From positions 1-54,363 of the forward strand of contig VXIS01000325.1 in the NCBI GenBank assembly GCA_008704415.1: DNA of 54,363 nucleotides. Reading direction: 5' to 3'. This document shows positions 60-42,425 of the stretch, in pieces. This DNA comes from Sphaerosporella brunnea. Its lineage: Eukaryota; Ascomycota; Pezizomycetes; Pezizales; Pyronemataceae. Every line of letters begins with the position of its first letter. Within the stretch, counting starts at the first letter, position 1. The position numbers and the translations under genes are program-made. The notes beneath the pieces were generated by a model. It saw only the letters and a program-made list of their open reading frames with translations. It searched no databases and was not told the DNA's origin.

Positions 60-700
60 CTCGGAATTCACTCATCACTCGCATCAATCGGCCAAAATTG
101 GCCGACGCCAAGCCGCGCTGGACTATAAATACCGCCCTCTTCCACTTCTCTCCCGCTTCCTTTTCCACCTGTCGCTCTTTTTTCCTTCTACCCCCCCCCC
201 CCCCCTCTTTCTTTACACCCCACCAATCCCTCAGACGCTTATTCAAAGTCTGATGAGTCACGGTCCAAGATCTTGCCCCCCCTCTTGACTGATGATAGTC
301 TTGATAGTGAAGACGTTTGACCCAGATCAAGAAAGTCGCAAGCACATTCTCTCAACACTGCAGTTTCGAGCGGCTATGGAACTGATACAGAGGTTGAGAA
401 CGGGCTTACATGAAAAGGAGGCTATTGTGTATCGTGCATACCTGCATCATCGTGATTCTTCTGACGCTTATCGAAAGCCTGATACACGGTCCAACATCTA
501 CTTCATCTGGAGGGACAATAGTCTTGATGAAAGCGATGGATGACTCTGATTAAGTAAGAGCCAAGCAATTTCGCTCAATGATACAGGATTCTACAGCTAT
601 GAATCTGGCGCCGAGGTTGGAAACGGGATTAGATTTCATCGTATTTTATATCGTGCTGCTAGCTGCTAGCTCTATCCATTCAACAGCAAATCGCTGGTGT
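60..700 (+). repeat. Structured-RNA repeat family, copy 1 (promoter plus two modules)
   Basis: The 14-mer GCCGACGCCAAGCC at 101-114 follows a palindromic GGCCAAAATTGGCC and is 9 bp before TATAAATA (124-131). A pyrimidine-rich leader with a run of about 15 C follows, then module 1 from the CAGAC hairpin at 232 and a diverged module 2 from about 457. In module 2 the third hairpin pairs GATTC (587-591) with GAATC (601-605), where the common form pairs CAGTTTC with GAAACTG. An 83-codon open frame (292-543) runs through module 1 but is probably incidental. The region 700-1000 is a tail shared with copy 14. No known RNA or transposon family is recognised. Transcription is inferred from promoter layout only. 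Confidence 0.8.
101..131 (+). promoter_or_regulatory. Core promoter-like block of the repeat family (14-mer, 9-bp gap, TATA box)
   Basis: This is the type example of a block found 18 times: GCCGACGCCAAGCC, 9 bp, then TATAAATA. Exact or near-exact 14-mers lie at 101, 2137, 10749, 17206, 18573, 19992, 21971, 22719, 23967, 24864 and 25383 on plus, and at 3780, 6678, 10211, 13975, 15474, 16652 and 42381 on minus. The 9-bp gap is kept in diverged subfamilies; the exception at 19992 has a 1-bp gap. The layout resembles a proximal sequence element plus TATA box of small-RNA genes, but no factor is identified. Confidence 0.7.
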
Positions 701-1028
701 CAATGGCCATAATTGACATTTGGCATAGCCACAACCCCGCGTCCTGTCGTTCTACAAGTCAACCTATGAGTCGAGTGTCTGACGTACATTGTCCGAGAAC
801 AGCTACCTCCACAGCAGGCGCTAAACCCCCTCTGTCATCGGCGTGTCGCCCTGGCGAAAGCATTGAGGTTGATAAGCAGCGTTGACATTTATCAGCAATG
901 GTGGTTTATCATCCTTGGGATGTATAGGACACACGAAAACATCCGTTCCTCCTCGCCCGCCCTTTACAGGATAGGATAGTCTGCGTGCCTCATTCCGTGA
1001 CGGCGACCCCAAACAGGCCGGCAAGGTC

Positions 1029-1475
1029 ATGTTATCAAACTGCAGGATCATGCCCCTAATGCTTGGTGAGATGCAGGTTCCCAACAGCCAGCCCGCGCAG
1101 CCGGCTGCGTTGGGCGGAGGTGCGCGGAGGAGGGCTGATCAAAATGCGGTGGTTATACAGGCTGTGCAAATCCAGGGCCGGGTGTTCGTGGTGCACCCTG
1201 ATGGAGACCACATTGACGACAAATACGACCGCCATGATATCAACTACCGCTATGAGTACGAGCAGAGGTTGCGGGCGGCGGATTTGAGCGGCAACCCGAC
1301 GGCACAGACCATCAATCGGTGCATGTATCAAGATATGAGCATTTCTCACCCTGCGTGCTCGCAAATCAGCTACCGTGCCTTGCCTGACTTCTCAGATCGA
1401 CCGGCAGACGGCCGCACATCCGACCTCATGGGTCTCCAGGTCGTAAATGTCGCCGGTCATTACTATGAAGTGTAA
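1029..1475 (+). CDS. Unrecognised open frame, 148 codons, related to an inverted fragment at 23.8 kb
   Basis: The frame is open for 148 codons and has no family I recognise. It is rich in Ala, Arg and Gln near the start and has a charged stretch VHPDGDHIDDKYDR in the middle. It lies downstream of the tail of repeat copy 1. A decayed relative of its first half lies at about 23755-23900 in the opposite orientation: the reverse complement there still shows the segment encoding VHPDGDH and the CAGCCAGCCCGC block. It may be a captured gene fragment or part of a larger repeat. No intron, promoter or start context supports a working gene. Confidence 0.3.
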   Translation: MLSNCRIMPLMLGEMQVPNSQPAQPAALGGGARRRADQNAVVIQAVQIQGRVFVVHPDGDHIDDKYDRHDINYRYEYEQRLRAADLSGNPTAQTINRCMYQDMSISHPACSQISYRALPDFSDRPADGRTSDLMGLQVVNVAGHYYEV

Positions 1476-1850
1476 AGTACAGTTTTCATACCTAGTTCTA
1501 CGAACGTCAGTGGGCGCAGTTGGTGGCGCGGCTATAGCGGATCGTGCCCGGTCCGCGTTCGTGGTATTATGTTCACTGATGATTCATGGATGCCGGCTTT
1601 GAGGAAAGAGCTGAAATTCGGTAGCCGCAGTCCATCAAGTGTAAAGGCAACTGTAATTGGAGCGAATTGATCCGGACAGCACTAAAAGATCTCTTGGCAA
1701 TCTTGCACCTGTATCAGAGTTGATCAGCAAAGTCTAAGGTTACGCTGGCTGGGCAGATTGCCTGGCAGCGGGTCTGTCTGACACTGCGCTCGACGGTACA
1801 TCTCCTTCTTCAAAGATAAATCTTCAACCCAGGCACTCGTGGTATAGGTG
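1476..1850. other. No gene seen
   Basis: This stretch holds only short chance frames and no repeat that I can match elsewhere in the window. Confidence 0.5.
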
Positions 1851-2010
1851 GTTCAGATAAATTGCTTTAACGAATTGAAACGGAGCCGCACATCTTCATG
1901 GTCAAGACTGTCGTCAGTCAAGATGCCTGAACAAGATTTTTCACCGTGTATTATCACCTTGAATATGCGTCTGACCAATGGCAATTCCAAAAGTGTGGTG
2001 TAAAAAAAGA
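1850..2010 (-). repeat. Decayed module of the structured-RNA family
   Basis: On the minus strand the order of blocks matches a module: a CAGACGC-like start near 1970, a TGATAATACACGGT-like block and AGTCTTGACCATGAAGATG. Many substitutions and a lost third hairpin mark it as an old copy. It has no recognisable promoter block. Confidence 0.55.
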
Positions 2011-2104
2011 GGGAGTGATGGTCAAGAGGGGGAGCTGGGAAAAGAGTGATGGGTTGTGGAGGTGCTCTGAACTTTTGTTTTACCTTGTCGCACATCCTGC
2101 ATCA

Positions 2105-2690
2105 CTCCAATCAATGATTATGAAGCGGCGAATTTAGCCGACGCCAAGCCTCGCTGGACTATAAATACAGCCATCTTCCTCTTCTCTCCCGCTTCCCTTC
2201 TCACCTCTCGCTCTTTTTTCTATCTACCCCCCCCCCCCCCCTTCTTTCTTTACACCACCCCAATCCCTCAGACGCTTATTCAAAGTCTGATGAGTCACGG
2301 TCCAAGATCTTGCCCCCCCTCTTGACTGATGATAGTCTTGATGGTGAAGACGTTTGACCCAGATCAAGAAAGTCGCAAGCACATTATCTCAACACTGCAG
2401 TTTCGAGCGGCTATGAAACTGATACAGAGGTTGGGAACGGGCTTACATAAAAAGAAGGCTATTGTGTATCGTGCATACCTGCATCATCGTGATTCTTCAG
2501 ACGCTTAGTGGCAGTCCGATACACGCTCCGCCATCTTGACTGAGAGTCTTCATTGTGAAGCTGTATGGCTCTGATCAAGTAAGAGTCAAGCAATTTGGCT
2601 CAGTACTGCAGGTTTAATGCAGCTGGTATTGAGGTTGGGAACGGGAGTACATTTAAACCTATCTGTGATTGTGCTCACATCTAGTGCTGT
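2105..2690 (+). repeat. Structured-RNA repeat family, copy 2
   Basis: The 14-mer is at 2137-2150 and TATAAATA at 2160-2167, with the standard 9-bp gap. The leader contains a run of about 14 C. Module 1 starts at 2269 and is close to the main consensus; module 2 (from about 2498) is degraded, with the third hairpin no longer pairing. Its upstream flank (CATCACTCCAATCAATGATTAT) resembles that of copy 15 rather than copy 1. Confidence 0.8.
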
Positions 2691-3370
2691 GACGATTGAT
2701 GGTTGCTCTGGTTCATCATGATCACGGCACCGCGTGTCGTAATGGCGACAGAATAGTTTGCCCGCAGAAATGTACATTGGCCCAGATTGTATACCGCCCC
2801 TGCAGCGGACCAAACCCTACAGCCATGGTCACCAAAGCATTGACCTGATGAGCGTTCACCTGGCGGCGGAGTGTCGGAAACATGACACTCTATATCCCCT
2901 AGCCATTCGTCGCGCATCACTGAGCGAGGAAACTGTGCAATGATGTTATGTCACTCTACAAGAAGCAGAGCGACGGATCGAACAATAGTCAAACAGGAGG
3001 TCCGTTCTCAAGAGTTCTTTTAGTGGTTGTCAAGGTTGTGTGGGAATTTCTCGCCCCAGAACGGGCTGCGAGCGGTATTGCTGTTGGTCCATCAGCGCCG
3101 CAATCTCGGACCGCAGTGTTACGAAGTTGTTGCCCAGCGAATTTGAATTGCGGGTCTCGCCGTCTCACGCCCTCATCTGAAGTCTGCTTTCAATCGCAGG
3201 GAGAGGGCACGTTCAAAGCGTGGACACCCTCGCAGCGGGTCACAGAGAGCTCATCCAGCCTTAGAAGATTTCAGCATCGTCCTACGCCGTTGCTGTCGCA
3301 ACACGTCCAGAACAGTCGCTGCCCAACCTGCTGTGGCAACGCGCATATAAACGTCTACCGCCGCCATTGA
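2690..3370. other. Tail of copy 2 and unassigned sequence
   Basis: The part near 2700-2950 has weak similarity to the tail after copy 1 (TACATTG blocks). From 2948 a 140-codon frame is open but shows no domain and no codon or intron support. No gene is called. Confidence 0.4.
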
Positions 3371-3499
3371 AGAAAGCGCGGCTTTTGCCAGGAGCAGCTT
3401 GGTGGTGCGTCCTGCTCCCGCCACCTTTGGGCTTGCGAATGAACAACCTCTATGGTGCTTGCGCAGCAGGAAGCTAACACGATAGACAACAGCCTTCTT

Positions 3500-3840
3500 T
3501 TTATGTAAGCCCGTTCTCAACCTCTGTATCAGTTTCATAGCCGCTCGAAACTGCAGTGTTGAGAGAATGTGCTTGCGACTTTCTTGATCTGGGTCGTACA
3601 TCTTTGCCATCAAGACTATCGTCTGTCGAGATGCACAAGATGTTGGACCGTGTATCATCAGACTTTGAATAAGCGTCTGAGGGATTGGTGTGGTGTAAAG
3701 GGCGGAGGGTGGAAAAAAGAAAGAGATGCAGAAGCAAGCGGGAGAGAAGTGGGGGAGGGCGGTATTTATAGTCCAGCGAGGCTTGGCGTCGGCTAAAATT
3801 GGCCACTTCGTGCGAGTGATGAGTGAACCGCGAGTGTAGT
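3500..3840 (-). repeat. Structured-RNA repeat family, copy 3 (single module)
   Basis: On minus the 14-mer is at 3780-3793 and the TATA box at 3763-3770. One module runs from about 3681 to 3505. Its second hairpin pairs fully: GGTC-CA-ACATCTT with AAGATGT-AC-GACC. It therefore lacks the G-to-C-rich replacement (GGTCCAAGATCTTGCCCCCCC) seen in the most common module type. Only one module is present; sequence beyond 3500 is unrelated. Confidence 0.8.
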
Positions 3841-6040: not shown

Positions 6041-6190
6041 TGTTTAAAGTGCAGCGCACCATAACAATCATCTCGATTGCGAATAGAGATTGCTCGAAGA
6101 TGAGCCAGATCACGAAAAATGTAGCATCTAAGGACAGCCGGCCAACACTTTCCCCAATCACTGCATCAGGTTCGCAGCAAGATTCAGTCC
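6040..6190. repeat. Dispersed repeat shared with 14137-14285
   Basis: Blocks ACAATCATCTCGATTG, AATGTAGCATCT and CACTGCATCAGGTT occur in the same order at 14140-14270. In both places the block is close to a copy of the structured-RNA family, copy 4 here and copy 7 there, but in different relative positions. This suggests old segmental rearrangement. Confidence 0.65.
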
Positions 6191-6740
6191 GCCATCTGTC
6201 CCTCGATCAGGATGTTATTGAGCTGTGTATCACCACACGTTTCGGTGAGCGTTTCATGAATCCAGCTGGGGATGGGTATCGTCTGTCGAGATGAAGAAGC
6301 CACTGGACCGCGTATCATCAAACTTTCAATGAGCGTCTGGGGAATCACGATGATGCAGATAAGCACGACACACAATAGCCTTCTTTTTATGTAAGCCCGT
6401 TCTCAACCTCTGTACCAGTTCCATAGCCGCTCGAAACTGCAGTGCTGAGAGAATGTGCTTGCGACTTTCTTGATCTGGGTCAAACGTCTTCACCATCAAG
6501 ACTATCATCAGTCAAGAGGGGGGGCAAGATCTTGGACCGTGACTCATCAGACTTTGAATAAGCGTCTGAGGGATTGTGAGGGTGTAAAGAAAGAGGGGGG
6601 GGTAGATGGAAAAAAGAGCGAGAGGCGAAAAGGGAAGCGGGAGAGAAGTGGAAGAGGCGGTATTTATAGTCCAGCGAGGCTTGGCGTCGGCCAATTTTGG
6701 CCGATTGATGCGAGTGATGTGTGAATTCCGAGTGCTGGGG
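6190..6740 (-). repeat. Structured-RNA repeat family, copy 4
   Basis: On minus the 14-mer is at 6678-6691 and the TATA box at 6661-6668. Module 1 spans about 6565-6390. Module 2 (about 6338-6190) diverges after the first half and resembles module 2 of copy 8, both carrying a CCCAGCTGGATTCAT block. The third hairpin of module 1 has a U-G wobble pair (CAGTTTC against GGAACTG). Confidence 0.8.
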
Positions 6741-7190
6741 GGTTGAATTACATCCCCGTACGGTAGAACTTTGCATTCCGCGCACTCCTCAAATCATCCT
6801 CGCTTCAACCCAATACTATGTTGCCCATACATAGGGCTGACTCCGGTGATGGTGATCCGCTGTTTATGATGTGTAAGGGCGTCACCTTGCGCCACATCTA
6901 TACTCTTACCCAATATACATCACAGGACGTCTTTACCGACTGGTTTGCGAGGCGAGATCGCGAGGCATGTTTCCACCAAGTACTTATGATGCAGGCTCGC
7001 ATTCAGGAGTTTGCCTTTAGTCGCCCACTACTTCTCCGCTCGTGTTCTTCCTTTTCATCCGCCACCATCCCAGAGTGACACTATACATCCGCAGCCGGGC
7101 GGGCGTGATGACCGCCGGCATCAAAACAGCCTCATCTGCGATCGGCATAGGTCTAGTCACGAGGCAAATGACAATACAAATGTAGCAACG
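6741..7190. other. No gene seen
   Basis: A frame at 6818-7078 has no recognisable content. No repeat relation is visible. Confidence 0.4.
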
Positions 7191-7280
7191 GTCCGAGGCA
7201 TCGACAAACGCCAACGCTCTTCCCAACCTCTGCATCCAGTTCCGGGCTGCAGTGCCAAGATGAATTGCTTCGACTCAATG
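7190..7280 (-). repeat. Decayed module end of the structured-RNA family
   Basis: The minus strand reads GGCACTGCAG, CCGGAACTGGATGCAGAGG and TTGGGAA, matching the third hairpin and following block of a module. The rest of the module and any promoter are missing. Confidence 0.55.
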
Positions 7281-9280
7281 TGAGTCGTTCACCATCTCCA
7301 AAGACTATGCATGCAGGCAAGACGCTGGAAGGTGTTCGACTTGTACGTTAATAGACTAGCTTTAGCGTCTGATATGAATCCTGCTGTTGGGATCCAAAGT
7401 TTTTGGTATACTAGCAAGCCAGAGGAAAGGAAAGTTAGGGGGAGGAAGGCGCGTTTTATACGTGGCGGTGGCTTGGCAGGGGGCAAAAATTGTCTTGTGT
7501 TGTTGTCTAAGCATTGCGCGATTACTCGTGTTTCACAAGGCGCGCTAGCAGCGCTTATGGACCACTTCCTACTCATTTTCCTATGATGGAGACCATCACG
7601 ACAACCCTCAGCGGCCCCTGCTTTCGAGACAGTGGCAAACCCCAATCACTTCCACTCTGGTAGCTAGCCAAGTTACGAACATCTGAACTTACTAACCGCG
7701 ATATAGAAAGCCACGAATAGCGTGAATCGAGGGGCTGGACAGTTTTCGGACAAGCTACATGCGCATTTCAACCGAATCATGCCTGAAGTGTTATAACAAA
7801 TCGCCCGAGCCTCACCCAGAGTACGATATCGCGCTGCCCGATTACGCAACCCGGCCACGACACCAACCGCGCTTTCCCTTGCTTGTGTCGATACTGATAC
7901 TCCTTCGCTGCATGCGCATGGACGATGTCAGGCAAGGAATCTTTTCCTCGGCGTTCGATGGGCCCACAGTACAAAGATACCACGTATTGTGGGACTCACA
8001 ATCCCAACGTTGCAGCGTCCTTATCCGACTGCATCAGGTGCGGAGAAAAGGAAGTGCGGACGTGGCTGCACACTGGAAGGTTGGATGAATAATTGACACA
8101 GGCGTGTGCAGGTGTATGGTGCACAGGAATGCAAGGCATGTTCAGCGTATTGTCCTTGGTTTTTAGTGGGAAAAGAATGGTCTACGGAGAAAGACAGCAC
8201 GCCGGGTCTAGGTGGAGCGCACATTCCCATTCCGGCCCCCTAAAATCGACGAAACAACAACAGCACGCACGCGATATTCATGGTACCCAGCAACGTCCGT
8301 CTCGGTTGCCCTACTGCGGCTGCTGTATACTTCCCGTACAAATGCCCTCGTTGTCGAATCCGCTGCCGATAGAGCACGATTGAACCATTGCTCTGCTTCA
8401 TGCGTAAACCCGCCTTGACAGAGTTATCGTTTGGCTACCATGAAGAAGCGTCCCTTTTCTGAAGTATCGGCTGATACCGATGCTGAGCTATCACAGATGC
8501 AGCCATTAACTAACAGCCCAATTGCACGATCCAATGCTGAAGGTGTCCAATCTTCTGAATCCACTGATCTCACAAGCTGGGACTGGGGCACACGGGGGAC
8601 ACACGCCGTTGGGAAAGGCACAGCCGCCGCTTGATGTTGGACAAGGTTTTGCAAAGTCGTGGCGGATCACCGCTAGGTTGTGGTGGTAGCGTGCCTCACA
8701 CTCGAAGTCGACTGTACTGGATGTAGCAAGAGGCTTCAGTCGTTGACAATGGCGCGAAGACCTGCGTCGGTTTCATCCTGGGGTTACTATAGAGAGCAGG
8801 ACCACAAGATATGGTGGCCGCCGTGAGCGTTATTGCAATCCCCACCCGGTTCGTTGATTGCTTCCCACCGATCTCTTCCTAGACTGAGCCACTCCTCCAT
8901 ACACCGGTCGCGATCCGACTCCTTCCAACACTGGCTATCCGAATGGTCAGCGCCAAGCAAAGGATTGGAGCTCGGGGTGAATAGAGAGCGCAAATACCAA
9001 TCACCAAACACCGCAATGTAGCAGCCGTCCATGGTACAAATAAATGCGACGCCAGTGCGCAGGTCCAGATCTAGATTGAGCCAGCAGGGCCGCGATTGAT
9101 TGCTTTTGTACAATGTCCGTTTCGCCGTCACGATTATCGCCAGATGGTGGAAGATGGCCGACTCTGGCGAATCACATATCAAACGGTCGGAGGAATAAAG
9201 CGGTGGTGCACCGCCGAGAGTATTCTGGAAAGCGCAACGAAAGATGGCGGAACGAGCGATACGCCAGAAGTGGGATTTAG
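7281..9280. other. About 2 kb with no gene I can support
   Basis: Open frames of 60 to 131 codons exist on both strands (for example 7289-7645 minus, 7759-8088 plus, 8787-9182 minus). None shows a domain, signal peptide or splice model. The frame at 8787-9182 has an ordered-looking stretch (GVAFICTMDGCYIAVFGDWY) but no support beyond that. Confidence 0.4.
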
Positions 9281-9317
9281 TAGCAGCCCGTTCGCAACCT
9301 CAGCACCAGGTTCATCT

Positions 9318-9735: not shown

Positions 9736-9739
9736 ATAA

Positions 9740-10280
9740 ACCCTGCAGTGTTGAGATAAAGTGCTCAAGTCTATCACGATCTGGGTCATACATCTTTGTT
9801 CATCAAGACTATTGTCGGTCAAGATGAACAACATGTTGGACCGTGCATCACCAGACTTCAAATGAGCGTCTGAAGAATCACGATGATGCAGGTATGCACG
9901 ATACACGATAGCCTCCTTTTCATGTAAGCCCGTTCCCAACCTCTGTATCAGTTTCATAGCCGCTCGAAACTGCAGTGTTGCGAGAATGTGCTTGCGACTT
10001 TCTTGATCTGGGTCAAACGTCTTCACCATCAAGACTATCATCAGTCAAGAGGGGGGGCAAGATCTTGGACCGTGACTCATCAGACTTTGAATAAGCGTCT
10101 GAGGGATTGGGGGGGTGTAAAGAAAGGAGGGGGGTAGATGGAAAAAAGAACGAGAGGTGAAAAAGGAAGCGGGAGAGAAGAGGAAGAGGGTGGTATTTAT
10201 AGTCCGGCGAGGCTTGGCGTCGGCAAAAATTCGCCGCGTCATGCGAGTGATGAGAGTGATGAGTGAATTGCGAGTGAGCG
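9740..10280 (-). repeat. Structured-RNA repeat family, copy 5
   Basis: On minus the 14-mer is at 10211-10224 and the TATA box at 10194-10201. Module 1 spans about 10100-9928 and module 2 about 9870-9745. Module 2 stops inside its third hairpin, exactly where the palindromic Harbinger-associated repeat begins, so that repeat or a rearrangement has cut it. The upstream region carries CACTCATCACTC and CATCACTCGCATG, as in copies 1, 3 and 7. Confidence 0.8.
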
Positions 10281-10711: not shown

Positions 10712-11260
10712 GTGCCGCGCGTCACTCAGTTTACGTCGGCCAAATTTGGCCGACGCCAAGCCTCGCTGGACTATAAATACCACCTTTTCCACTTCTCTCC
10801 CGCTTCCTTTTTCACCTCTCGTTCTTTTTTCCATCTACCCCCCTCCTTTCTTTACACCCCCCCAATCCCTCAGACGCTTATTCAAAGTCTGATGAGTCAC
10901 GGTCCAAGATCTTGCCCCCCCCTCTTGACTGATGATAGTCTTGATGGTGAAGACGTTTGACCCAGATCAAGAAAGTCGCAAGCACATTATCTCAACACTG
11001 CAGTTTCGAGCGGCTATGGAACTGATACAGAGGTTGAGAACGGGCTTACATGAAAAGGAGGCTGTGTGTCGTGCGTACCTGCACCATCGCGATTCTTCAG
11101 ACGCTGATGATATACGATCCAACATCTCAACTCCTAATCGTCTTGATGACAAAGATGCTCGATCCAGATCAAGTCATAGTGAAGCTATTGATCTTAACAC
11201 TGCAGGTGTCATGCAGCTACAAACTAAATATAAAGATTGGGAACGGGCTTATATCTGAGC
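10712..11260 (+). repeat. Structured-RNA repeat family, copy 6
   Basis: The 14-mer is at 10749-10762, next to a palindromic GGCCAAATTTGGCC, and TATAAATA is at 10772-10779. Module 1 starts near 10871 and matches the main type. Module 2 starts near 11098 and is informative: its second hairpin has GATC (11116-11119) against GATC (11161-11164), where others have GGTC against GACC. This is a paired change that keeps the stem. The inner stem CATCT/AGATG is also kept. Confidence 0.85.
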
Positions 11261-12450
11261 GCGTTTCGCAGTGTGCTTCGGTATGGCCAAAGTTGCGTTA
11301 TGTGTTATCAGATTTGCCACTTCGCAGTTTCACAGCCAAAGTAGCCACGTTCCGCTAGCCAATAAAACACCCTCCTCTCATTCTGCAAATTCAGCCTTGC
11401 ACCACGAGCTTGCAAATTAACTGACATTTAGCGCCCTGGAAGCGCCGTCAGATTTTTCAGAATCTCAAGCAGTAATGAGCTGGCACCGGATTGGAAGAGC
11501 TTAAAAACTCGAGATTTTGTATGGGGCCTCACACAAAAAGTGACGTGACGACGTCTTGATTTCACCGATCCACCTTCTCACCACAACATCCGATTTTGAA
11601 AGTTTTGCCATCATTGCTGGAATTCTATGGTTCTATCTATCTCATCAAAACCAGATCAACGTTCTGCACTGTGTCGTGATGGAGTTATTATTGCTCCAAT
11701 ATGGCGCATTTTCGATGGAAAACCAGTCAAAAAGCGGAGTCGCGTAAGCGAAACCTTTTGGGCTAGTACTATACGAATGCCGCCACCTGACATACCCAAA
11801 GCGTGGCGAAGGAGAGCTCTGCTGGCTAGGTCGTTTATTAAGCTGATACGGCTACTTCCTTGCTCAAAAAGTAACATTGTTTGTGCGGCTATTCTCTGGC
11901 ACAACTGAGCTACACTTGGTTGCACCGTGGTGTCTGCCCGTGTTGCCGCAATCTAGGATTCTTCATAGACAACCTGTCAGGCTGCGCTCAGCGGGCTTTG
12001 GACGCGCGCATCGACAGGTGGGTAGTTGGACCATCACGCGCACGATCGCGTGCTCTATGACGAACAGCAAACTTTCCTTTGATTTGTAGAAGACGATCTT
12101 AACTTTCTAGTCCATGTTGGAGCAGCTGGTTCCCAGTCGCACGGCACATTTGCCATATTCGCCATCTCTGTCGTGTCGATCATCTGGTCCCAGAAAGTTT
12201 GCGCATCCTCTGTACTGGCAAAACGTATCTTTCGGGACCGGCGGGCCGCGGGCTCCCATTCCACAGAATGCGGCGTTACAGTGCAGTGACAAGTGACTTC
12301 GCGACTTCTTTGTCACTCTCAACCAGACAGCGCACCTGTCGCCGGGTAAGACAGGTCAGTCATACAGGTGATGTGCACGGCCTTCTGGGATTGCCGGGAG
12401 TGACCCTAGGCTTGGTTTGTAGTTCGAGACGAAGCGGCGCGTTGTAGAAT
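11261..12450. other. No gene seen
   Basis: Short overlapping frames on both strands between 11556 and 12447 show no domain. No repeat is recognised in this stretch. Confidence 0.4.
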
Positions 12451-12454
12451 GACG

Positions 12455-12744: not shown

Positions 12745-12746
12745 CG

Positions 12747-12834: not shown

Positions 12835-12839
12835 TTTTT

Positions 12840-13440
12840 GATGTCAGGTTGAAAGCAGTCGGACCCATAAACACTCAATGTTGTCAGGCCCTACCCTCTT
12901 GGCGACAACCAATTTTTTCTGCCCTCACTCGGCGGTCGTCGACAACCTGCAGCCAATATTATCAATAGCTGGACCTCTCTCGCCGGGAGCTTTGAATGCT
13001 GCAACTGATCATGGGCCTTCTGACTTCAGGATATTCCTCTTGGCGTGAGCATGAAGTATATATGGGCGCGTGGGTAAGGCGAGAGCTCCATGTGTGAGCG
13101 AGAATTCCGCCACTGCAATCATCAAGACACTTACCCTCGCGTAACGGTGAATGGCATTGGACGGTGTGATGGTTGCAGCTGCGCGGATGATAGGCGCGCA
13201 GTCAATCAGCGGTGTCATCGCTGGCGCTCCTCCCCGGCGATGTGTCACGGCAAGGTAGGGTAAATTTTCCGTGTTTTTCCGCCTCACGTGTCACTTTGCT
13301 CTATATAGTAGTAGATAGCGACCGCCAAACAGCGCAAAAGTTCATTCGGAACAGCACTTTGACGCAAGAGTTGTCCTAATGCGCACAGCAAGTTCAAAAT
13401 AATGGTATCAATGGCTAGAGCCCCAGAGCTAAGGACTATG
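12840..13440. other. No gene seen
   Basis: Only chance-length frames are present (12762-12968 plus, 13009-13287 minus). Confidence 0.4.
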
Positions 13441-14060
13441 GAAAATAGGATTGAATGTAAGCCCGTTCCTAAGTTCTGTGGCAGGTTCATAGCTGCCTGC
13501 AATCTGCCGTGTTAAGATAAATCGCTTGACTCTTCCTTGATCTGGGTCATACCAAGACTAGCGTACAGCGAAATGAAGATGGCGGAACGTGTATCATCAG
13601 ACTTTTGAATGAGCGTCTGTGGTGCAGGTATGCTCAATACACAATAGCTATGCTCAATACACAATAGCCTTCTTTTTATGTAAGCCCGTTCTCAACCTCT
13701 GTATCAGTTTCATAGCCGCTCAAAACTGCAGTGTTGAGAGAATGTGCTTGCGACTTTCTTGATCTGGGTCAAACGTCTTCACCATCAAGACTATCATCAG
13801 TCAAGAGGGGGGGCAAGATCTTGGACCGTGTATCATCAGACTTTGAATAAGCGTCTGAGGGATCGATGTGGCGTAAAAAAAGAAAGGAGGCGGGGGGGGA
13901 TGGATGGAAAAAAGAGAGAGATGTACAAGGAAGCGGGAGAGAAGTGGGAGAGGGCGGTATTTATAGTCCAGCCAGGCTTGGCGTCGGCTAAAATTCGCCG
14001 CTCGATGCGAGTGATGAGTGAACCGCGAGTGCAGTGCCGTGGTTGGTAGAAATTGACATC
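13440..14060 (-). repeat. Structured-RNA repeat family, copy 7
   Basis: On minus the 14-mer is at 13975-13988 and the TATA box at 13958-13965. Module 1 spans about 13855-13680. Module 2 (about 13620-13455) has lost most of the inner second hairpin. Between them a 22-bp unit (TATGCTCAATACACAATAGC) is directly duplicated near 13630-13670. The flank upstream of the promoter is shared with copies 1 and 3. Confidence 0.8.
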
Positions 14061-14995: not shown

Positions 14996-15019
14996 TGCTA
15001 GATAAGGATGTTGTGGGCT

Positions 15020-15520
15020 GTGTATCACCACACGATTCAGTGGGCGTTGGATGAATCCAGCTGGGGATGAGTATCGTCTATCGAGATGAAGATGGTCGAC
15101 CGTGTATCATCAAACTTTCAACGAGCGTCTGAGGAATCACGACGATGCAGATAAGCACGACACACCATAGCCTTCTTTTTATGTAAGCCCGTTCTCAACC
15201 TCTGTATCAGTTCCATAGCCGCTCGAAACTGCAGTGTTGAGAGAATGTGCTTGCGACTTTCTTGATCTGGGTCAAACGTCTTCACCATCAAGACTATCAT
15301 CAGTCAAGAGGGGGGGCAAGATCTTGGACCGTGACTCATCAGACTTTGAATAAGCGTCTGAGGGATTGGGGTGGTGTAAAGAAAGAGGGGGGGGGGTTGG
15401 ATCGAAAAAAGAGCGAGAGGCGAAAAAAGAAGCGGGAGAGAAATGGAAGGGGGCGGTATTTATAGTCCAGCGAGGCTTGGCGTCGGCTAAAATTGGCCGG
15501 CATCAACTGAGTGCCGCGCC
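15020..15520 (-). repeat. Structured-RNA repeat family, copy 8
   Basis: On minus the 14-mer is at 15474-15487 and the TATA box at 15457-15464. Module 1 spans about 15360-15185. Module 2 (about 15130-15030) has the same diverged second half as in copy 4. Its upstream region carries GGCACTCAGTTGATG, the type found with copies 6, 12, 14 and 18. Confidence 0.8.
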
Positions 15521-16130
15521 ATGTTTACTTTTCAGGATATTAGGCCTGGGGACAAATAACCTGGCGTTCGTCAATTGGATGATGCGCTGTGACTACGGTG
15601 AAAGTGACCTGTGATGGGATACCGCTTGTCGCGTGTCCGCACTCCGCTAGCCAGAAAATACAGCCTTCGCTATCAAGCACCGTCTTTCGCCACCACGAGG
15701 CGCTGATGGTGGAGCGGTTTACCAAGCCCCCATGACGGAAAACTTCATCAGCCAATGTAGGTGGCGGGACGGACACACTAACACGAGTCACTTTGCGGAA
15801 CGCCATCATGACGCTGCCGTGTGGGACTGAGGCTCCGATGGTACGCTCGGGGAATCGGCTTAACCGACCCGTACCAAACAGTCTAGCATTCCATAGTTCA
15901 CCATTCCCCGGACCTGCTATCTTCAGAAACCTCGGTAAATAGCTTTTGGAGGACGAAAGCTGGTTAACCATGCATATAGCGGGAGAGCGGAAACTTTGGT
16001 GCAGGCTCACGGCGATACTGACGTCGAATTCGATCCTGAAATTGGCATATACAGGCGCCGGAATCATTGAATGGTGCATTTCGGTGAACGACCTCAATTG
16101 TAACGGCCGGTGGAGAAATGCACGATACGA
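15521..16130. other. Unassigned sequence between copies 8 and 9
   Basis: A 237-codon minus frame (15540-16253) crosses this region, but its first part is read from a module of copy 9 and the rest has no domain. I do not call it a gene. Confidence 0.4.
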
Positions 16131-16710
16131 AATAGGATTACATACAAGCCCGTTTGCAACGTCTGCACCAGGTTCATCGCTGCATAAAGCCTGCAGTGTT
16201 GAGATAAAGTGGTTGAGTCTATCACGATCTGGTTCATACATCTTTGCCATCAAGACTATTGTCTGTCAAGATGCAGCAGATTTTGGACCGTGTATCGTCA
16301 GACTTTCAATGAGCGTCTGAAGAATCGCGATGATGGAGGTATGTACGCTACACACAATAGCCTTCCTTTCATGTAAGCCCGTTCCCAACCTCTGCACCAG
16401 GTTCATAGCTGTATAAACGTGCAGTGTTGAGAGAATGTGCTTGGGACTTTCTTGATCTGGGTCATACATCTCTGTCATCAAGACTATTGTCAGTCGAGAT
16501 GAAGAAGATGTTGGACCGTGCATCATCAGACTTTGAATGAGCGTCTGAGGGATCGATGTGGTGTAAGGCGGGGGGCTGGATGGCGAAAAGACAGAGATGT
16601 GAAAAGGAAGCGTGAGAGAAGTGGAAGAGGGGGGTATTTATAGTCCAGCGCGGCTTGGCGTCGGCTAAAATTTGCCGATTGATGTGAGCAACGAGTGAAA
16701 TGCGAGTGAG
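16130..16710 (-). repeat. Structured-RNA repeat family, copy 9
   Basis: On minus the 14-mer is at 16652-16665 and the TATA box at 16635-16642. Module 1 (about 16545-16375) is of the type with an intact second hairpin (ACATCTT against AGATGT). Module 2 spans about 16320-16143 and ends CTGCAGGC then GAACCTGGTGCAG. The leader lacks the long C run. Confidence 0.8.
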
Positions 16711-17190: not shown

Positions 17191-17930
17191 AATCGGCAAG
17201 CTTTGGCCGACTCCAAGCCTCACTGGACTATAAATACCGCCACTTCCCACCTTTCCCTCTTCCATATCTCCATCGTTTGCATCTTGCTTTCTTCCCATCT
17301 TTTCCAGGCCACTCTTGGCTGAATTCATCAGACGCTTTTGTCAAGTCTGATCACGCACAGTCCGTCTTCTTGAGCATCTGGCTGGGCTTTGATGATCAAG
17401 CTGTATGACTAAGAGCAAACCGAAGCAATTATTCTCAACACTGGAGGTTATCCGTCTTTGAACCTGTCAGCAGAGGTTGGGAACGGGCTTGGCTTTTTGT
17501 ACCCTCGCCTTGAACAATTGCTACATTTGCTCATGATTGGGATTGTTAGAATGGTCATAGCGGCTTCCAATATCACTCTCTTCTCCACCCCATCCCCCTT
17601 CTCCTGTACGCTGATCGCGAGTCTTCACATGCTCATTCAAAGTTTGATGATACACGGTTCAATAGAGAGTTTGCGATTTGCGTCTAAACGCAAAAATCAG
17701 GCGGTGACTCGAAGTCTTGGCCAGCTTAAATTTGCGTCTGGATGCAAATCGCAAACTCTCTAATATCGTCTTCGACCATCTTGAATCATTATAGTCTTGA
17801 TGCACAAGATGTGTGACGCAGATCAGTGTTCAAGAATTTTATCTCAACGCTGCACGTTTCATGCAGCTGTAAAGCTGGTATAGAGGTTGGAAACTGGTTC
17901 AAACTTAACCGTATGTACTATCGTGCGCCA
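17190..17930 (+). repeat. Structured-RNA repeat family, copy 10 (subfamily 2)
   Basis: The 14-mer is at 17206-17219 with one mismatch (GCCGACTCCAAGCC), and TATAAATA at 17229-17236. The leader differs from the main type (CATATCTCCATCGTTTGCAT) and is shared with copy 12. Module 1 starts near 17329; its second-hairpin outer stem is AGTC against GACT. Module 2 (from about 17627) is split by an 88-bp inverted-repeat element. Confidence 0.8.
17674..17761. mobile_element. 88-bp miniature inverted-repeat element
   Basis: The ends are inverted copies: AGAGAGTTTGCGATTTGCGT on the left and ATGCAAATCGCAAACTCTCT on the right. AAT flanks both sides, giving a 3-bp target duplication. Removing the element and one AAT restores the continuity of a module (GATACACGGTTCAA then TATCGTC), matching paralogues. 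There is no coding capacity. A 3-bp duplication fits Harbinger-type mobilisation, but this is inference. Confidence 0.75.
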
Positions 17931-18530
17931 TTCAACCTTGCGTGAATTGCTGCGGTGACCGGGGCGTCACGTGGCATTGGTTAAACGGTTACTGTTTGAA
18001 ATTTCCCCGCCTGGGATCCGAAGTATTCACTATATCCCCAGCTGGCTACGACGTCCCACAAACTAAACTGCGTTCCCCTGAGATATCGGCTTCGATGTGG
18101 TGTTTTGCACCTGGGGAATCCTGGGCTTCCCTGGCCACACCTTGAACAGATATCTTCATTGCGCCCTGTCGTGTGGTTCCATATTCAATCTGCTTGCGAA
18201 TATCTCGCTTCCTGAAATCTTTAGCGTTAGTTCAACAGAGATTCCGGGATTATCGCGGTCCAGAGTGAGTCCTGCCTGTGCAGGCTGAGTCTTGATCTGC
18301 AGTGCTTGAGGCGTCAGAGGTCAGGCTGGCGGCGCACTTGGACAAGCGACCATGAGCAGCAGGTTGAGGCAGAGTGAATGCGGGGAGCGGGGTTATGGGA
18401 GGCATGGGTGTCCCCGCTTTTGTGTCTGCAATATTCAGGGAGGAATCCTGAAAATGATGAAATCTTGGTGGAACGAAGGACATTTTGGGTCTAATCTTGA
18501 TCATTTCTTCAATCACCGCAGTCACCAGGC
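17931..18530. other. No gene seen
   Basis: Short frames only; no repeat relation noted. Confidence 0.4.
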
Positions 18531-19070
18531 GTCATTCAGTTCAAGAATTTTGGCCGATGCCCAGCCATTTTAGCCGACGCCAAGCCTCGATGGAAGATAA
18601 ATACCGCCTCTTCCTCTTCTCTCCCGCTTCCTTTTTCACCTCTCGTTCTTTTTTCCATCTACCCCCCTCCTTTCTTTACACCTCCCCAATCCCTCAGACG
18701 CTTATTCAAAGTCTGATGAGTCACGGTCCAAGATCTTGCCCCCCCTCTTGACTGATGATAGTCTTGATGGTGAAGACGTTTGACCCAGATCAAGAAAGTC
18801 GCAAGCACATTATCTCAACACTGCAGTTTCGAGCGGCTATGAAACTGATACAGAGGTTGAGAACGGGCTTACATGAAAGGAAGGCTATTGTGTATTGTGC
18901 ATACCTGCACCACCGCGATTCTTCAGACGGTCACTCAATGTCTGATGATACACAGTTCAACATCTTCTCCATCCCGACCGACAATAGTCTTGACGACAGA
19001 TGCATGACCCAGGTCGAGTGAGAGTCAAGCAATTTGTTTCGACACTGCAGCTTTGATACAATTATGGATA
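18530..19070 (+). repeat. Structured-RNA repeat family, copy 11
   Basis: The 14-mer is at 18573-18586; the TATA position reads GATAAATA (18596-18603), a one-base loss of the box. Module 1 starts at 18695 and module 2 near 18923. The third hairpin of module 1 is a perfect 7-bp stem: CAGTTTC (18824-18830), ten loop bases, GAAACTG (18841-18847). A second, mutated promoter-like block (GGCCGATGCCCAGCC) lies just upstream near 18552. Confidence 0.8.
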
Positions 19071-21955: not shown

Positions 21956-22240
21956 ATCCGGCCAATTTTAGCCGACGCCAAGCCTTTTCGGACGATAAAA
22001 ACGCCGCTGCTCCACCTAACCACTTTTCCCAACCAATATTGAGAAGGAACAGCAAGGCTGGATTCATCAGACGCTTTTTTTCAAAGTCTGATAATCACAG
22101 TCCAACATCTTGCAGCATCTGGCCTTGATGCCAAAGATGTCGGACTCAGATCAAACTCAAGCAATCAATCCCAACACTGCAGGCGAGTCCAGCTCAGAAC
22201 CTGACGCAGTGGTTGGGAAAGGTTAGGCGTTGTGCTGACA
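21955..22240 (+). repeat. Structured-RNA repeat family, copy 13 (subfamily 3, single module)
   Basis: The 14-mer is at 21971-21984 and a weakened box GATAAAAA follows after the standard gap. The module starts near 22067. Its second hairpin has AGTCC (22099-22103) with GGACT (22142-22146) and ACATCTT (22105-22111) with AAGATGT (22134-22140). The third hairpin is extended: CACTGC with GCAGTG around AGG/CCT. Sequence identity with the main type is low while the pairing is kept. Confidence 0.75.
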
Positions 22241-22689
22241 CCTTCGACGGTTGCTACATTTCTTCGCGTTACCGCTTGTAGATCTAGCGATTCATGCATA
22301 TTTATGCTGCGACATGCGCTGCGTCTAGATGCGCTAGGAACCAGCCCTTCTGCGCCGCGAGCTATGTACCAATACACTTGGCGAGAAGGTCCGCCGCGCG
22401 AAGAGCTGGACAAACGCGTCCGTATTCTACGGCGCGTGCCGCGCCCCTTCACCGCGTTATGTTCTACGCGCTGCGGAATTGAGCGGACTGTCGCAGCGAC
22501 GATCGATTCCAGAGCAAAACGGCTGTACCAAGCATCGAAGAGAATGAACAGGCAGCGCAGCGCTGCTGGCTGCGATTTGTTCAGAACCTCAAGCGGAATT
22601 TGAAGGTGTCAATGATTGCACTGGAGATACTCCACTGGGAATCTTGTCGCGCAACTCGAACGTACTCCGCACCGATGGCAGTCACAACG
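22241..22689. other. Unassigned open frame region
   Basis: A 123-codon plus frame (22232-22603) starts in the tail of copy 13. It is rich in Arg and Ser and has no domain I know. I see nothing else. Confidence 0.35.
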
Positions 22690-23470
22690 CGTCATTCAGT
22701 TCGTGGCGGCCAATTTTAGCCGACGCCAAGCCGCGCTGGACTATAAATACCGCCTCTTCCACTTCTTTCCCGCTTCCTTTTTCACCTCTCGCTCTTTTTT
22801 CCATGCATCCCCCCCCCCCTCTTTCTTTACACCCCCACAATCCCTCAGACGCTTATTCAAAGTCTGATGAGTCACGGTCCAAGATCTTGCCCCCCCTCTT
22901 GACTGATGATAGTCTTGATGGTGAAGACGTTTGACCCAGATCAAGAAAGTCGCAAGCACATTATCTCAACACTGCAGTTTTGAGCGGCTATGGAACTGGT
23001 ACAGAGGTTGAGAACGGGCTTACATAAAAAGAAGGCTATTGCGTATCGTGCATACCTGCGTTATCTTGATTCTTCAGACGCTCATTGAAAGTCTGATGAT
23101 ACACGGTCCAACATCTTATTCATCTCGACTGACAATAGTCTTGATGACAGAGAGATGTCTGACCCAGATCAAGAAAGTCGCAAGCACATCATCTCAACAC
23201 TGCGGTTTCGAGCGGCTATGAAACTGATACAGAGGTTGAGAACGGGCTTACATGAAAGGGAGGCTATTGTGTATCGTGCATACCTGCATTATCGTGACTC
23301 TTCAGACGCTCATTGAAAGTTTGATGATGCACTGTCCAACATGTTGTTCATCTCGACAGAGAATAGTCTTGATGAATAAAGATGCATGACCCAGATCAAG
23401 GAAGACTGCGGGTTCCATAAAACTTTGAACCTGTTCGGAACAAACTTACATTGATATCGTGCTGCTGGCT
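22690..23470 (+). repeat. Structured-RNA repeat family, copy 14 (three tandem modules)
   Basis: The 14-mer is at 22719-22732 and TATAAATA at 22742-22749. Modules start near 22846, 23075 and 23303, a period of about 229 bp. Module 1 is the main type. Module 2 has an ACATCTT/AGATGT second hairpin. Module 3 has a third hairpin pairing GGTTC (23411-23415) with GAACC (23427-23431). This is the largest copy seen and shows that modules multiply in tandem. The tail at 23470-23760 matches that of copy 1. Confidence 0.85.
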
Positions 23471-23939: not shown

Positions 23940-24470
23940 TCAATGATTATCAATCGGCCAATTTTGGCCGACGCCAAGCCTCGCTGGACTATAAATACCA
24001 CCCTCTCCCACTTCCCTCCCGCTTCCTTTTTCACATCTCATACTTTTTTCCCGCCCACCCTCCCCGCCCTACTTCTTTTTTTACCCCAATCCCTCAGACG
24101 CTTATTCAAAGTCTGATGATTCACGGTCCAACATCTTGTGCATCTCGACACACGATAGTCTTGATGGCAAAGATGTACGACCCAGATCAAGAAAGTCGCA
24201 AGCACATTCTCTCAACACTGCACGTTTATACAGCTATGAACCTGGTGCAGAGGTTGGGAACGGGCTTACATAAAAGGAAGGCGATTGTGTATTCTGCATA
24301 CCTGCATCATCGTGACTCTTCAGACGCTCAATCAAAGTCTGACGCTGCACTGTGCAACATCTTCGTCTCGACACACGATCGTCTTGATGACAAAACATGT
24401 ATGGCCCAGATCAAGGATGAGTCAAAATCTCATAACGACGGGCGGTCCGGCAGGCTGCAAGTGATAAATC
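23940..24470 (+). repeat. Structured-RNA repeat family, copy 15
   Basis: The 14-mer is at 23967-23980 and TATAAATA at 23990-23997. Module 1 starts at 24095 and module 2 near 24321. The second hairpin of module 1 is complete: GGTC (24125-24128) with GACC (24179-24182) and ACATCTT (24131-24137) with AAGATGT (24170-24176). A 190-codon open frame (23906-24478) spans leader and both modules. The main-type modules carry a stop in this frame, so the frame is probably incidental. Confidence 0.8.
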
Positions 24471-24849: not shown

Positions 24850-25060
24850 ATGGTCTAATTTTAGCCGACGCCAAGCCCGCCGCGTCTAAAAGCAATGTCC
24901 ATGCCAAACAGCACAAGTCCGCCTTCTTCACAATACCACCGCTGCACAATGCAACAGTCTTGATGGCGAAGATGCTGGACTTGAATACATCAAAGAAAGG
25001 GACACTAGCTGCCACACGGCATGCCGGTGGTCGGGAAAGATAGTGGCGAGCTTTGCCCGT
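24850..25060 (+). repeat. Structured-RNA repeat family, copy 16 (subfamily 4)
   Basis: The 14-mer is exact at 24864-24877; the TATA position has TAAAAGC. The leader is much shorter than in the main type. The stem CAAGTCC (24914-24920) pairs with GGACTTG (24977-24983), and an AACAGTCTTGATGGCGAAGA block identifies the module. The first and third hairpins are not recognisable, and a GTCGGGAAAG block replaces the usual module end. Confidence 0.7.
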
Positions 25061-25093
25061 GCTTTTGCACGATCGCGAGATCTCATGTTTGGC

Positions 25094-25375: not shown

Positions 25376-25640
25376 GATTTTCGCCGACGCCAAGCCCGCC
25401 GCGTCTATAAAACCCCGCGACCCTGCTTCGCTCCTCCTCCATGCTAGTAACCACAAGTCCACCTGCTTCACAACATCACTACTGCATAATGCGACAGTCC
25501 TGATGACGAAGATGGTGGACTGGATCACATCAAACAAATGCAATTAGTCCCGACAATGGAAGGCAGACTAGCACCCACAAGACGAACCCTGCGGTCGGGG
25601 AAGAGAGTGGCGTGCCGTGCCATTGCTCTTAGACAATTGC
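25375..25640 (+). repeat. Structured-RNA repeat family, copy 17 (subfamily 4)
   Basis: The 14-mer is exact at 25383-25396 and TATAAAA is at 25406-25412 with the 9-bp gap. It shares GCCGCGTCTA, the short leader and the GTCGGG(G)AAG block with copy 16. The outer stem is AGTCCACC (25456-25463) with GGTGGACT (25514-25521), 8 bp and longer than in any other copy. Confidence 0.75.
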
Positions 25641-25960
25641 TACATAGCTGTATCGGGGTTTCCTTCGGCAGCTCCAGCTGCGCCACGCGACGAGTTTTAT
25701 CGCCACCTCTGTTCCACTGTGGACCACTACATTGCAAGCGTGCAACGCGTGATACTTGCCGCAGTCGCAGCGGCTGAGTCATAGGCTTTGGACATTCACC
25801 ACTCAATGTGTCGCGCGAACGGCTCGCACGATATGTATACAATTACTGATCTTGCGAGCACGACCCTCCTTTTTCGCCCAGGGAGAAATGATATCTCTAC
25901 AAAATGGTCAGTCACGAGTGGCCTAGATAACTGTGATCATGTAGCCCGAGTGACCTCACT
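25641..25960. other. No gene seen
   Basis: Short overlapping frames on both strands without domains. Confidence 0.4.
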
Positions 25961-40560: not shown

Positions 40561-40709
40561 AGGAGACGGGGTTTTTTAGATGGAAGTGCCGTAGCGCCCG
40601 GGGGTTATATGGAGATCGCTCGGCATCAGACGCTTACCGAAAAGCTCGGCCTTTACGAGACCGAAGGTTAGGCGAAACGTTTTCGACACTGCCTAGAAAG
40701 AGGGGGGAG

Positions 40710-40939
40710 TGTTGGAAACTGGCTTTCTAGGCATGGTTAAGGCATGGATAAGGATGAGTAAGAGCCATTGCTTGGAGTAGTGATATGCTATGATGGAGGA
40801 CCGAATGACATCATGGTGACGCTTGGAAGGGTATATATACGCGCCTAGATAGCCTCTTAGAGCGTAATAAGACAATCACCTTTCCCATCATCTACGACCC
40901 CGCCTACGCTTGACCTCCACTCCCAGACTATTTTCAACA
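40710..40939 (+). repeat. Right LTR of the copia element
   Basis: It is 230 bp with the same TG...CA ends as the left LTR, and four single-base differences from it (near 40846, 40859, 40919 and 40923). Confidence 0.95.
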
Positions 40940-40944
40940 GTTTC

Positions 40945-41880
40945 GGCGCACGAACCAACCTGATGAGACTGGTGATGCTCCATCCTCAAATTTTGCAACA
41001 GTACTCAGCACGATGGAAAGCCTTGCACCCGGTATGGGGTAGGCACCATCAGGACTCCAGTGCCAACCGGCTCCCTGCAAGACTTTCAACACCGTATTGA
41101 CCGCTTCGATTCGATGCGCATGACCAAGGAAACAAGCAAGGTGTCCTCTGGTTTGGGACGACTCAGACCGGGCTCCCCGCAACTAAAAATTGACTACTTG
41201 TTAGTTGCAGGCCTATCCTCTGAAATGCGATTCCTCTACTGCATTATCTTGATTTCGAACACTGTAGTAAGGAACCAGGTGGGTGATTCCTTCGCAGTTT
41301 GCTCAGCGCAAAACACCAGCATTCCTGAGAGCCTGCCTAAAAAGCTCGGTGTGTAGGGTGGCTTAAGTACATCCCAACCGAGTGAGTTTCCTCTCGAGAT
41401 CCGGCCATGAACAGACGCGCTGGTGTAATGCTAAACCCGCTATTGAGTGGCTGCGAGGAGTGAACGCAGTGTACAGTACCATTGGATAAACAAACTCTGG
41501 CCGAATCGTGTGATGAACAAAATAACAAATCGCTCAGCCCACGGTTCGGCTTTGCGTTGTTGTGTTTTGCAATTGAATCACATCTGTCTATTTGCATCAC
41601 AATCATGGTCACTCGCGACGCGTCACGCACCCGCGTTGGCTGCAGTGCAAAAACTCGCCGCACTTCTGAATAGCCTGAGAAGCCCGACCAGCAGGCTGGC
41701 TACTGGTAGCACCCGTGGCGGCTGCCGTCACGGAGAGTAACACCAGCAAATCCGACACGCCGATACTTTAGAGACTCAGAGGTCGAGGTTTATGATCGAT
41801 GCGGGGTTTGAATACTTACAAAGAATGTAAAAATTGCAGCTCAATGAACGTCGTGTGCGGGGCTTCGCTCATGCATCGGT
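40945..41880. other. Unassigned sequence right of the copia element
   Basis: A minus frame (41182-40940) runs up to the copia insertion. Read across the reconstructed empty site it stays open for about 17 more codons on the left side (to 38230). It might be a gene interrupted by the insertion, or chance. No domain is recognised. Confidence 0.3.
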
Positions 41881-42425
41881 TTGGAGCTATACCAGGTTCA
41901 TAGCTGCGAAAAACTTGCATTGTTGAGATAAATTGCTTGACTCTTTCTTGATCTGGGTCATACATCTCTGTCATCAAGACTATTGTCAGTCGAGATGAAG
42001 AAGATGTTGGACCGTGTATCATCAGACTTTCAATGAGCGTCTGAAGAATCACGATAATGTAGGTATGCACGATTCATACTAGCCTCCTTTTCATGTAAGC
42101 CCGTTCTCAACCTCTGTATCAGTTTCATAGCCGCTCGAAACTGCAGTGTTGAGAGAATGTGCTTGCGACTTTCTTGATCTGGGTCAAACGTCTTCACCAT
42201 CAAGACTATCATCAGTCAAGAGGGGGGGCAAGATCTTGGACCGTGACTCATCAGACTTTGAATAAGCGTCTGAGGGATTGGGGGGGTGTAAAGAAAGAGG
42301 GGGGGTAGATGGAAAAAAGAGCGAGAGGTGAAAAAGGAAGCGGGAAAGAAGTGGAAGAGGCGGTATTTATAGTCCAGCGAGGCTTGGCGGCGGCTAAAAT
42401 TGGCCGACGTAAACTGAGTGACCCG
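41880..42425 (-). repeat. Structured-RNA repeat family, copy 18 (isolated copy)
   Basis: On minus the 14-mer has one mismatch (42381-42394) and the TATA box is at 42364-42371. Module 1 spans about 42270-42095 and module 2 about 42040-41880. It is the only copy right of the Tc1 element, more than 16 kb from the next one, yet its module 1 is nearly identical to those at 6-23 kb. Its upstream flank carries GTCACTCAGTTTACGTCGGC, as in copy 6. Confidence 0.8.

Follow-up and report, generated by a model that had tools for sequence, protein, structure and literature searches.

Contig VXIS01000325.1 of the Sphaerosporella brunnea assembly GCA_008704415.1 (54,363 nt, referred to here as the window, and numbered C252 among the 640 contigs of this 50.6-Mb genome) carries a family of repeats between about positions 60 and 42425, in which a promoter-like block, a 14-mer followed after 9 nt by TATAAA, stands ahead of one to three modules of about 225 bp each. 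An earlier sequence-only reading had described 18 such copies on both strands. The family and its presence on both strands are borne out by a scan for the block, which gave 17 matches with three or fewer mismatches, on plus and minus strands, versus 0.00 expected from 100 shuffles. The count needs revision, however, as there are two more promoter-bearing copies, one at 19992 (plus strand) with the 9-nt spacer cut to 1 nt and one at 7483 (minus strand, also written c7477) with only the core GCCAAGCC and TATA, for a total of 19 copies in ~42 kb. The promoter spacing, said to be kept, is kept in 18 of the 19, including a copy at 24864 that has nonetheless lost its TATA letters, but not in 19992. 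Covariance-model and nhmmer matches agree with modules of ~225 bp behind each of the 19 promoters, although the second and third modules are decayed or partial in most copies. From comparison of sequences, this is probably a cluster of some 20 genes with U1-type promoters that appear to make undescribed folded RNAs, possibly related to small nucleolar RNAs (snoRNAs).

Copies are named here for their promoter positions. Promoter coordinates are from the block scan, and module coordinates mostly from the covariance model, unless stated otherwise; the ends given for predicted RNAs are projections. Thirteen copies are of the main form. On the plus strand these are copy 101 (promoter 101..131; module 1, of a C-run subgroup, 226..444; module 2, decayed, 455..665), copy 2137 (2137..2167; 2263..2481; decayed module 2, 2492..2712), copy 10749 (10749..10779; 10865..11081; 11092..11282), copy 18573 (18573..18603; 18689..18907; 18918..19062), copy 22719, with three modules (22719..22749; 22840..23058; 23069..23286; partial module 3, 23297..23452), and copy 23967 (23967..23997; 24089..24300; partial module 2, 24315..24428). 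On the minus strand they are copy 3793 (3763..3793; a sole module with hairpin 2 intact, 3471..3685), copy 6691 (6661..6691; 6357..6574; rearranged module 2, found by nhmmer, 6151..6339), copy 10224 (10194..10224; 9905..10107; partial module 2, 9758..9878), copy 13988 (13958..13988; 13661..13863; 13426..13624), copy 15487 (15457..15487; 15149..15366; partial module 2, 15019..15137), copy 16665 (16635..16665; 16340..16553; 16117..16325) and copy 42394 (42364..42394; 42060..42278; 41824..42049). A module fragment with no assigned promoter was matched by nhmmer at 1851..1974 (minus).

Six promoter-bearing copies in the window are of a longer form that has additional 3' sequence. Copy 7483 has the variant promoter (7453..7483, from the core + TATA scan) and an RNA at 7179..7379 (minus) that ends in the lower stem plus ACA; the other five lie on the plus strand. 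Copy 17206 (promoter 17206..17236) has an RNA with an ACA end at 17323..17527 and, behind an insert, the remainder of a second module at 17747..17939 (nhmmer and covariance model), and copy 19992 (shortened promoter 19992..20014) has an insert between the promoter and its RNA at 20486..20692. Both inserts (17663-17762 in the second module of 17206, and 20105-20485) have inverted ends, like miniature inverted-repeat transposable elements (MITEs). The RNA predicted for copy 21971 (promoter 21971..22001) would span 22036..22261, or 226 nt from TATA+42 to ACA+3. The degenerate copy 24864 (24864..24894) precedes a degenerate module at 24904..25086 from which the expected ACA is absent, and copy 25383 (25383..25413) precedes a divergent RNA at 25426..25646 that has an ACA end and lacks hairpin 1. 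A very divergent long-form module, 9196 (9015..9196, minus), ends in ACA and has no 14-mer in view upstream. With two genomic relatives on contigs C23 and C338, these are the nine full long forms. Relatives outside the window are few: two on C217, one each on C44, C312, C23 and C338, and a fragment on C31.

The promoter block extends beyond the family. The exact 14-mer occurs 25 times in the genome, with 16 occurrences in the window, four before the family members on C23, C338 and C217 (two), three before U1 genes on contig C639 and two, on C79 and C208, unassigned. When the core was sought together with TATA, 34 distinct genome sites were found (40 rows, versus 4 rows for a reversed control), consisting of 18 family members (14 of them inside the window), 11 U1 genes, one U4 gene (95.5 bits), one snR30/U17-type gene (locus L089; Afu_309, 86.6 bits), one site near an snR44-like RNA that scores just under its cut-off (32.9 vs 33) and may belong to a host gene, and two unassigned sites. 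A core + TATA site at locus L088 on contig C212 precedes an apparent short protein-coding gene.

Closer inspection of the spliceosomal and U3 genes covered 10 of 16 U1 matches, 10 of 19 U2 matches, two of six U3 matches above the cut-off, and two loci each for U5 and U6. In four of the ten U1 loci the 14-mer, exact or one mismatch away, lies at -66/-65 relative to the start, with TATA at -42/-43, and in four more the core GCCAAGCC occurs with TATA at -43 to -45. All ten U2 loci have TATA 42-44 nt ahead of the inferred first exon; the core itself is not present upstream of these ten, and at the place expected for the element, upstream of TATA, there are CGGCCAAAAT (in nine of the ten) and AGAGCC, which resembles the family's CGGCCAATTTTRGCCGACGCCAAGCC as a variant. 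In the two U3 genes, neither of which has GCCAAGCC, TATA lies 43 and 45 nt before the start, and one has GCCGACGC. The two U6 genes have TATATA at -30 and no core. Since the element, its core or a variant of it stands before U1, U4, snR30-type and U2 genes and one U3 gene, and not before U6, there are solid grounds in these comparisons for regarding the block as an RNA polymerase II (Pol II) promoter element of the small nuclear RNA (snRNA) and snoRNA type in S. brunnea, strictest in U1 and in the repeat family. Several genes do not conform: two of the ten U1 loci are without the element, the second U3 gene is without GCCGACGC, and both U5 loci show neither the element nor TATA within the 130 nt of upstream sequence.

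Because the block is common to U1 genes, the repeat copies themselves look like Pol II snRNA/snoRNA-type genes. Transcription of the copies would then be expected to start 42-43 nt after TATA, in place of the 25-35 nt proposed by the sequence-only reading. For copy 21971 this puts the predicted start at 22036 (TATA+42), and it is at TATA+42 that the long forms C23, 21971 and C338 start, by eye, to resemble each other.

The plan of the long forms consists of hairpin 1 (AUCAGAC/GUCUGAU), hairpin 2, a hinge, and a stem-closed 3' domain followed by ACA. Within the 3' domain the lower stem is AGCAAUY/RAUUGCU or a variant, the upper stem is CYCAAC/GUUGRG, and there is usually one more small hairpin. 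A covariance model built from four long forms (matches accepted at E up to 1) found 42 matches in the window and six of seven other loci taken together, and none in 32 further loci. One of the 42 (22083-22169, minus strand) is the shadow that a palindromic hairpin casts on the opposite strand, and the weakest few are at chance level. Long forms that were not in its seed, 7483, 25383 and C338, score 57 (57.4 for 7483), 46 and 41 bits. An iterated nhmmer search likewise caught reverse-strand shadows of palindromic hairpins, and only the stronger strand was used.

The conserved stems that had been noticed in the letters are real as inverted repeats. In a sequence-only alignment of 14 modules, on which the structure of 21971 (one of the 14) was drawn, 85.2% of cells are paired compared with 24-39% when the structure is slid along the alignment, and the covariation score is 0.089 versus 0.064 in shuffles (reached in 0/500). 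In an alignment fitted to the model, both sides change in 26 of 41 pairs versus 9.1 in shuffled and 8-15 in slid versions. Many main-form first modules compensate the lower stem (AGCAC/GUGC), with one pair split between 12 A-U and 12 C-G. Thus divergent copies keep their stems through compensatory changes, a signal that is weaker on the sequence-only alignment. Low folding energies were obtained for C23, 21971, 23967, 16665 and 3793 (z -2.2 to -3.5; module 1 of 16665 and of 23967 at -3.2 and -3.1) and borderline ones for 25383 (z -1.9) and the second module of 22719 (z -1.65).

A number of results weigh against the structured-RNA reading. The 26/41 figure comes from an alignment that was fitted to the structure and holds one shadow row; on the alignment built from sequence alone, double-sided changes are seen in 6 pairs versus 3.6 in shuffles (27/500), and the number of further pair types (23 versus 21.9) does not exceed that of the shuffles (197/500). 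From that same alignment RNAalifold recovers hairpins 1 and 3 and not hairpin 2. The relative on C312 (L093) is unmatched by the covariance model although nhmmer matched it. Ten of the 17 sequences tested, five of the eight long forms among them, fold with ordinary energy (z -0.9 to +0.8), and the C-run subgroup, in which hairpin 2 is damaged, ranges from z +0.8 to -0.4 (five tested). Among eight control stretches, one has z -2.7 and another z -1.7, so folding energy alone is poor evidence. Of the three hairpins claimed for each module the stems stand, but 10 of the 13 main-form first modules have a damaged hairpin 2, and 25383 has no hairpin 1. Even so, we consider it likely that the copies are structured RNA genes.

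Damage of this sort might also be read as the mark of a mostly dead cluster, that is, one or a few functional genes amid pseudogenes produced by local duplication and conversion, with the repeat itself being functionless. The broken second hairpins, the z values near 0 in five tested modules, the decay of later modules, the inserts in 17206 and 19992 and the lost TATA of 24864 would all suit such a history. The conservation profile (mean identity among the 13 main copies) speaks against it: identity is 0.99 in the 14-mer, 0.98 in TATA, 0.91-0.98 in the first module and 0.98 in the unpaired hinge, and falls to 0.73 in the leader, 0.55 in the second module (a value lowered by copies such as 3793 in which that module is partial or absent) and 0.32, or chance level, in both flanks. 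Conversion alone could also give a contrast of 0.91-0.99 over promoter and first module against chance-level flanks, and we regard a mostly dead cluster as improbable.

The other half of the original alternative was a non-autonomous element moved by an unknown machinery, which here would be an element resembling a MITE or a short interspersed nuclear element (SINE) that carries an snRNA-type promoter. In its favour there is a sharp 5' limit: in several pairs at 90-93% identity, similarity is lost near -12 when the 5' flank types differ, so that unrelated upstream flanks adjoin bodies at 92-93% identity, and the window is rich in transposon remains. Against this, the copies are clustered and not dispersed, and they have no common 3' limit, which lies anywhere between about 290 and 610 nt. 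Pairs of the same flank type remain similar to about -30 to -60 (~30-60 nt upstream), and C217a, C44 and 16665 share ~200 nt of upstream sequence at 73-80% identity. The window also has no tRNA gene. We infer that these mosaic flanks fit gene conversion among old clustered duplicates better than transposition; target duplications were not scanned, and mobility, as originally proposed, now appears very improbable.

Translation of the modules is more doubtful still. One 132-aa open frame (24080-24478) has 30 translated matches in the genome, which might suggest protein-coding repeats, but most of these matches contain stops. Variable columns are spread evenly over codon positions (14/39, 18/38 and 13/38), the best reading frame is still interrupted by stops in 3 of 14 modules, and the protein collection searched yielded no candidate homologue, nor did Pfam give a match. 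We reject a protein-coding repeat on these grounds and consider it scarcely credible. The claim that the family is one of non-coding RNA genes is correspondingly supported by the absence of a coding signal, together with covarying stems, a promoter shared with U1, U4 and snR30-type genes, and the lack of an Rfam family.

With respect to known RNA classes, Rfam gave no match at the gathering cut-off in the window, and permissive scans (eight loci, and the window from 7000 to 26000) gave only chance-level microRNA matches on the family, at 17665-17760 and 24830-24923. Among the papers listed in a search that lacks most subscription papers, we found no description of the family or of its promoter element. 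Box C/D snoRNAs were dismissed by eye, as UGAUGA and CUGA strings sit in hairpins 1 and 2 at what looked like the wrong spacing, and hammerhead ribozymes likewise, as CUGAUGA is present without the rest of the core and there is no Rfam hit. An Sm-class snRNA was rejected as well, since none of the 13 predicted RNAs has an Sm-like site, with U1 and U4 as positive controls. Hence the statement that the family matches no RNA class holds for Rfam and does not hold for the anatomy of the long forms, which resemble H/ACA snoRNAs.

The resemblance is one of plan and of motifs. ACA directly follows the lower stem in eight of the nine full long forms, with columns turning variable about three positions later, and ANANNA is found in the hinge of seven of eight long forms (in 9196 it overlaps the lower stem), although these ANANNA copies are homologous and two pairs are nearly alike, so that they represent few independent events. 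In Neurospora crassa, according to the part of PMC2780460 consulted, most H/ACA genes are transcribed independently, almost all exceed 160 nt and six of 20 are orphans. The family is comparable in its predicted length of over 200 nt, in having its own predicted Pol II promoter, in its hairpin-hinge-hairpin-tail plan and, in the long forms, in its ANANNA hinge and ACA tail, and orphans, to judge from that same portion of PMC2780460, are common in N. crassa. The differences are considerable. The plan has an additional hairpin on the 5' side, and its 3' domain is branched; no guide pocket is visible, the 5' strand of the 3' pocket being ~3 nt on folds of C23 and 21971; the family forms a multicopy cluster with tandem modules and has no Rfam match; the main-form first modules have not retained ACA behind the lower stem; and ACA is gone, too, from the long-form-like 3' ends that lie behind C44 and C312. 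Since the main subgroup fails the ACA test, we do not file the family as H/ACA. The sequences suggest membership for the long forms, whose anatomy is H/ACA-like, and H/ACA-like is the best-supported class, though an unproven one.

Other systems offer partial parallels. The snR30/U17 RNA (Rfam SNORA73, Afu_309) is of the H/ACA class but is not known as a modification guide, and its gene at L089 has the family's core promoter element and TATA; its models do not match the family, which moreover is multicopy. The U1 family of S. brunnea shares the identical 14-mer, TATA and spacing in some of its genes and is also multicopy and partly clustered (on C639), yet the RNA predicted for the repeat family is not matched by the U1 model and lacks an Sm-like site. 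The SmY RNAs of nematodes are a multicopy, lineage-specific family with an snRNA-type promoter; they are shorter and have an Sm site, which the family RNAs lack. An alternative is a novel class of snRNA-like RNAs that shares this Pol II promoter and would not be an H/ACA ribonucleoprotein (RNP) component at all, the ACA and ANANNA being coincidental or a site for some other protein, and the RNA acting in splicing or elsewhere in the nucleus. A promoter common mainly to U1 and also to U4 would suit such a class, as would a two-hairpin 5' part and a branched 3' domain unlike those of standard H/ACA RNAs, main-form first modules without ACA after the lower stem and the lack of a visible guide pocket. 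It is harder to reconcile with ACA right behind the closing stem in nearly all of the full long forms, where conservation fades ~3 nt on, and with the lack of Sm-like sites in any predicted RNA, and we think it unlikely, if still worth keeping in mind.

Our own reading, which we hold to be somewhat better than even, is that the copies are genes and decayed gene duplicates for a structured, nuclear, H/ACA-like RNA family known from one genome. A Pol II promoter of the snRNA type, with the 14-mer as proximal element plus TATA as in U1, would set the start ~42-43 nt after TATA. The long-form product, ~226 nt in 21971, would fold into a short hairpin on the 5' side and a second, long one, joined by a single-stranded hinge with ANANNA to a 3' domain closed by AGCAAUY/RAUUGCU, directly after which come ACA and about three more nucleotides. 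Given H/ACA-box-like anatomy without a normal guide pocket, the RNA would most likely act like an independently transcribed orphan H/ACA RNA, in an H/ACA-like RNP. The cluster would have grown by duplication, with gene conversion keeping the promoter and first module alike as the modules further downstream decay. What the sequences themselves show is the common promoter, stems paired with compensatory changes, the conservation profile and the lack of a coding signal; transcription, its start, the 3' end, association with H/ACA proteins, gene conversion and function are deduced. A bolder and only tentative form of this proposal is that the family is a lineage-specific Pol II snRNA-type class with H/ACA-like tails and no guide role, which has taken on a new nuclear function and whose dosage was raised by its multiplication into a gene-converting cluster of some 20 promoter-bearing genes.

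Some other features of the genome and window may be recorded here. The ribosomal protein L3 of this genome scores best against PDB entries 8oo0, 7olc and 7r81, which come from Chaetomium and Neurospora, as would be expected of a filamentous ascomycete. The U1 and U2 families are large (16 and 19 matches), with eight U1 matches on the 138-kb contig C639. All ten U2 genes examined (L078-L087) appear to be interrupted near the 5' end, where AGCTCTCTTTG is followed by GTACGT, GTATGT or GTAGGT, then GCTAA and CAG before CCTTTTGGC or a similar sequence, much as in a spliceosomal intron. Both U3 genes (L098, L099) seem to have a 5' intron (GTAAG...TGCTAAC). The sections of PMC5832005 consulted describe a U3 5' intron for most Pezizomycotina and name only U3 and U6 as small structured RNAs that are often interrupted. 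In the window, two 234-nt direct repeats, 98% identical, enclose a Pol_BBD-like stretch (38790-39344; 25 bits, cut-off 27) and make 38286-40943 a probable remnant of a long terminal repeat retrotransposon. There are transposase remains of three kinds, namely DDE_Tnp_4 (46947-47921), DDE_3 just under its cut-off (26268-26729) and a Tc5-type helix-turn-helix (52741-53595), and an inverted repeat at 49906-50922, with 257-nt arms that are 98% complementary and 503 nt apart, is possibly a foldback element.

The link between an anonymous repeat and the U1-type promoter of the same genome leads to exact predictions of transcript starts, and the promoter element alone could serve to catalogue the Pol II small-RNA genes of S. 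brunnea. If the copies are expressed, they would constitute an RNA family outside Rfam, with an unusually high copy number for RNAs of an H/ACA-like kind, and an example from nature of small-RNA genes that multiply while undergoing gene conversion.

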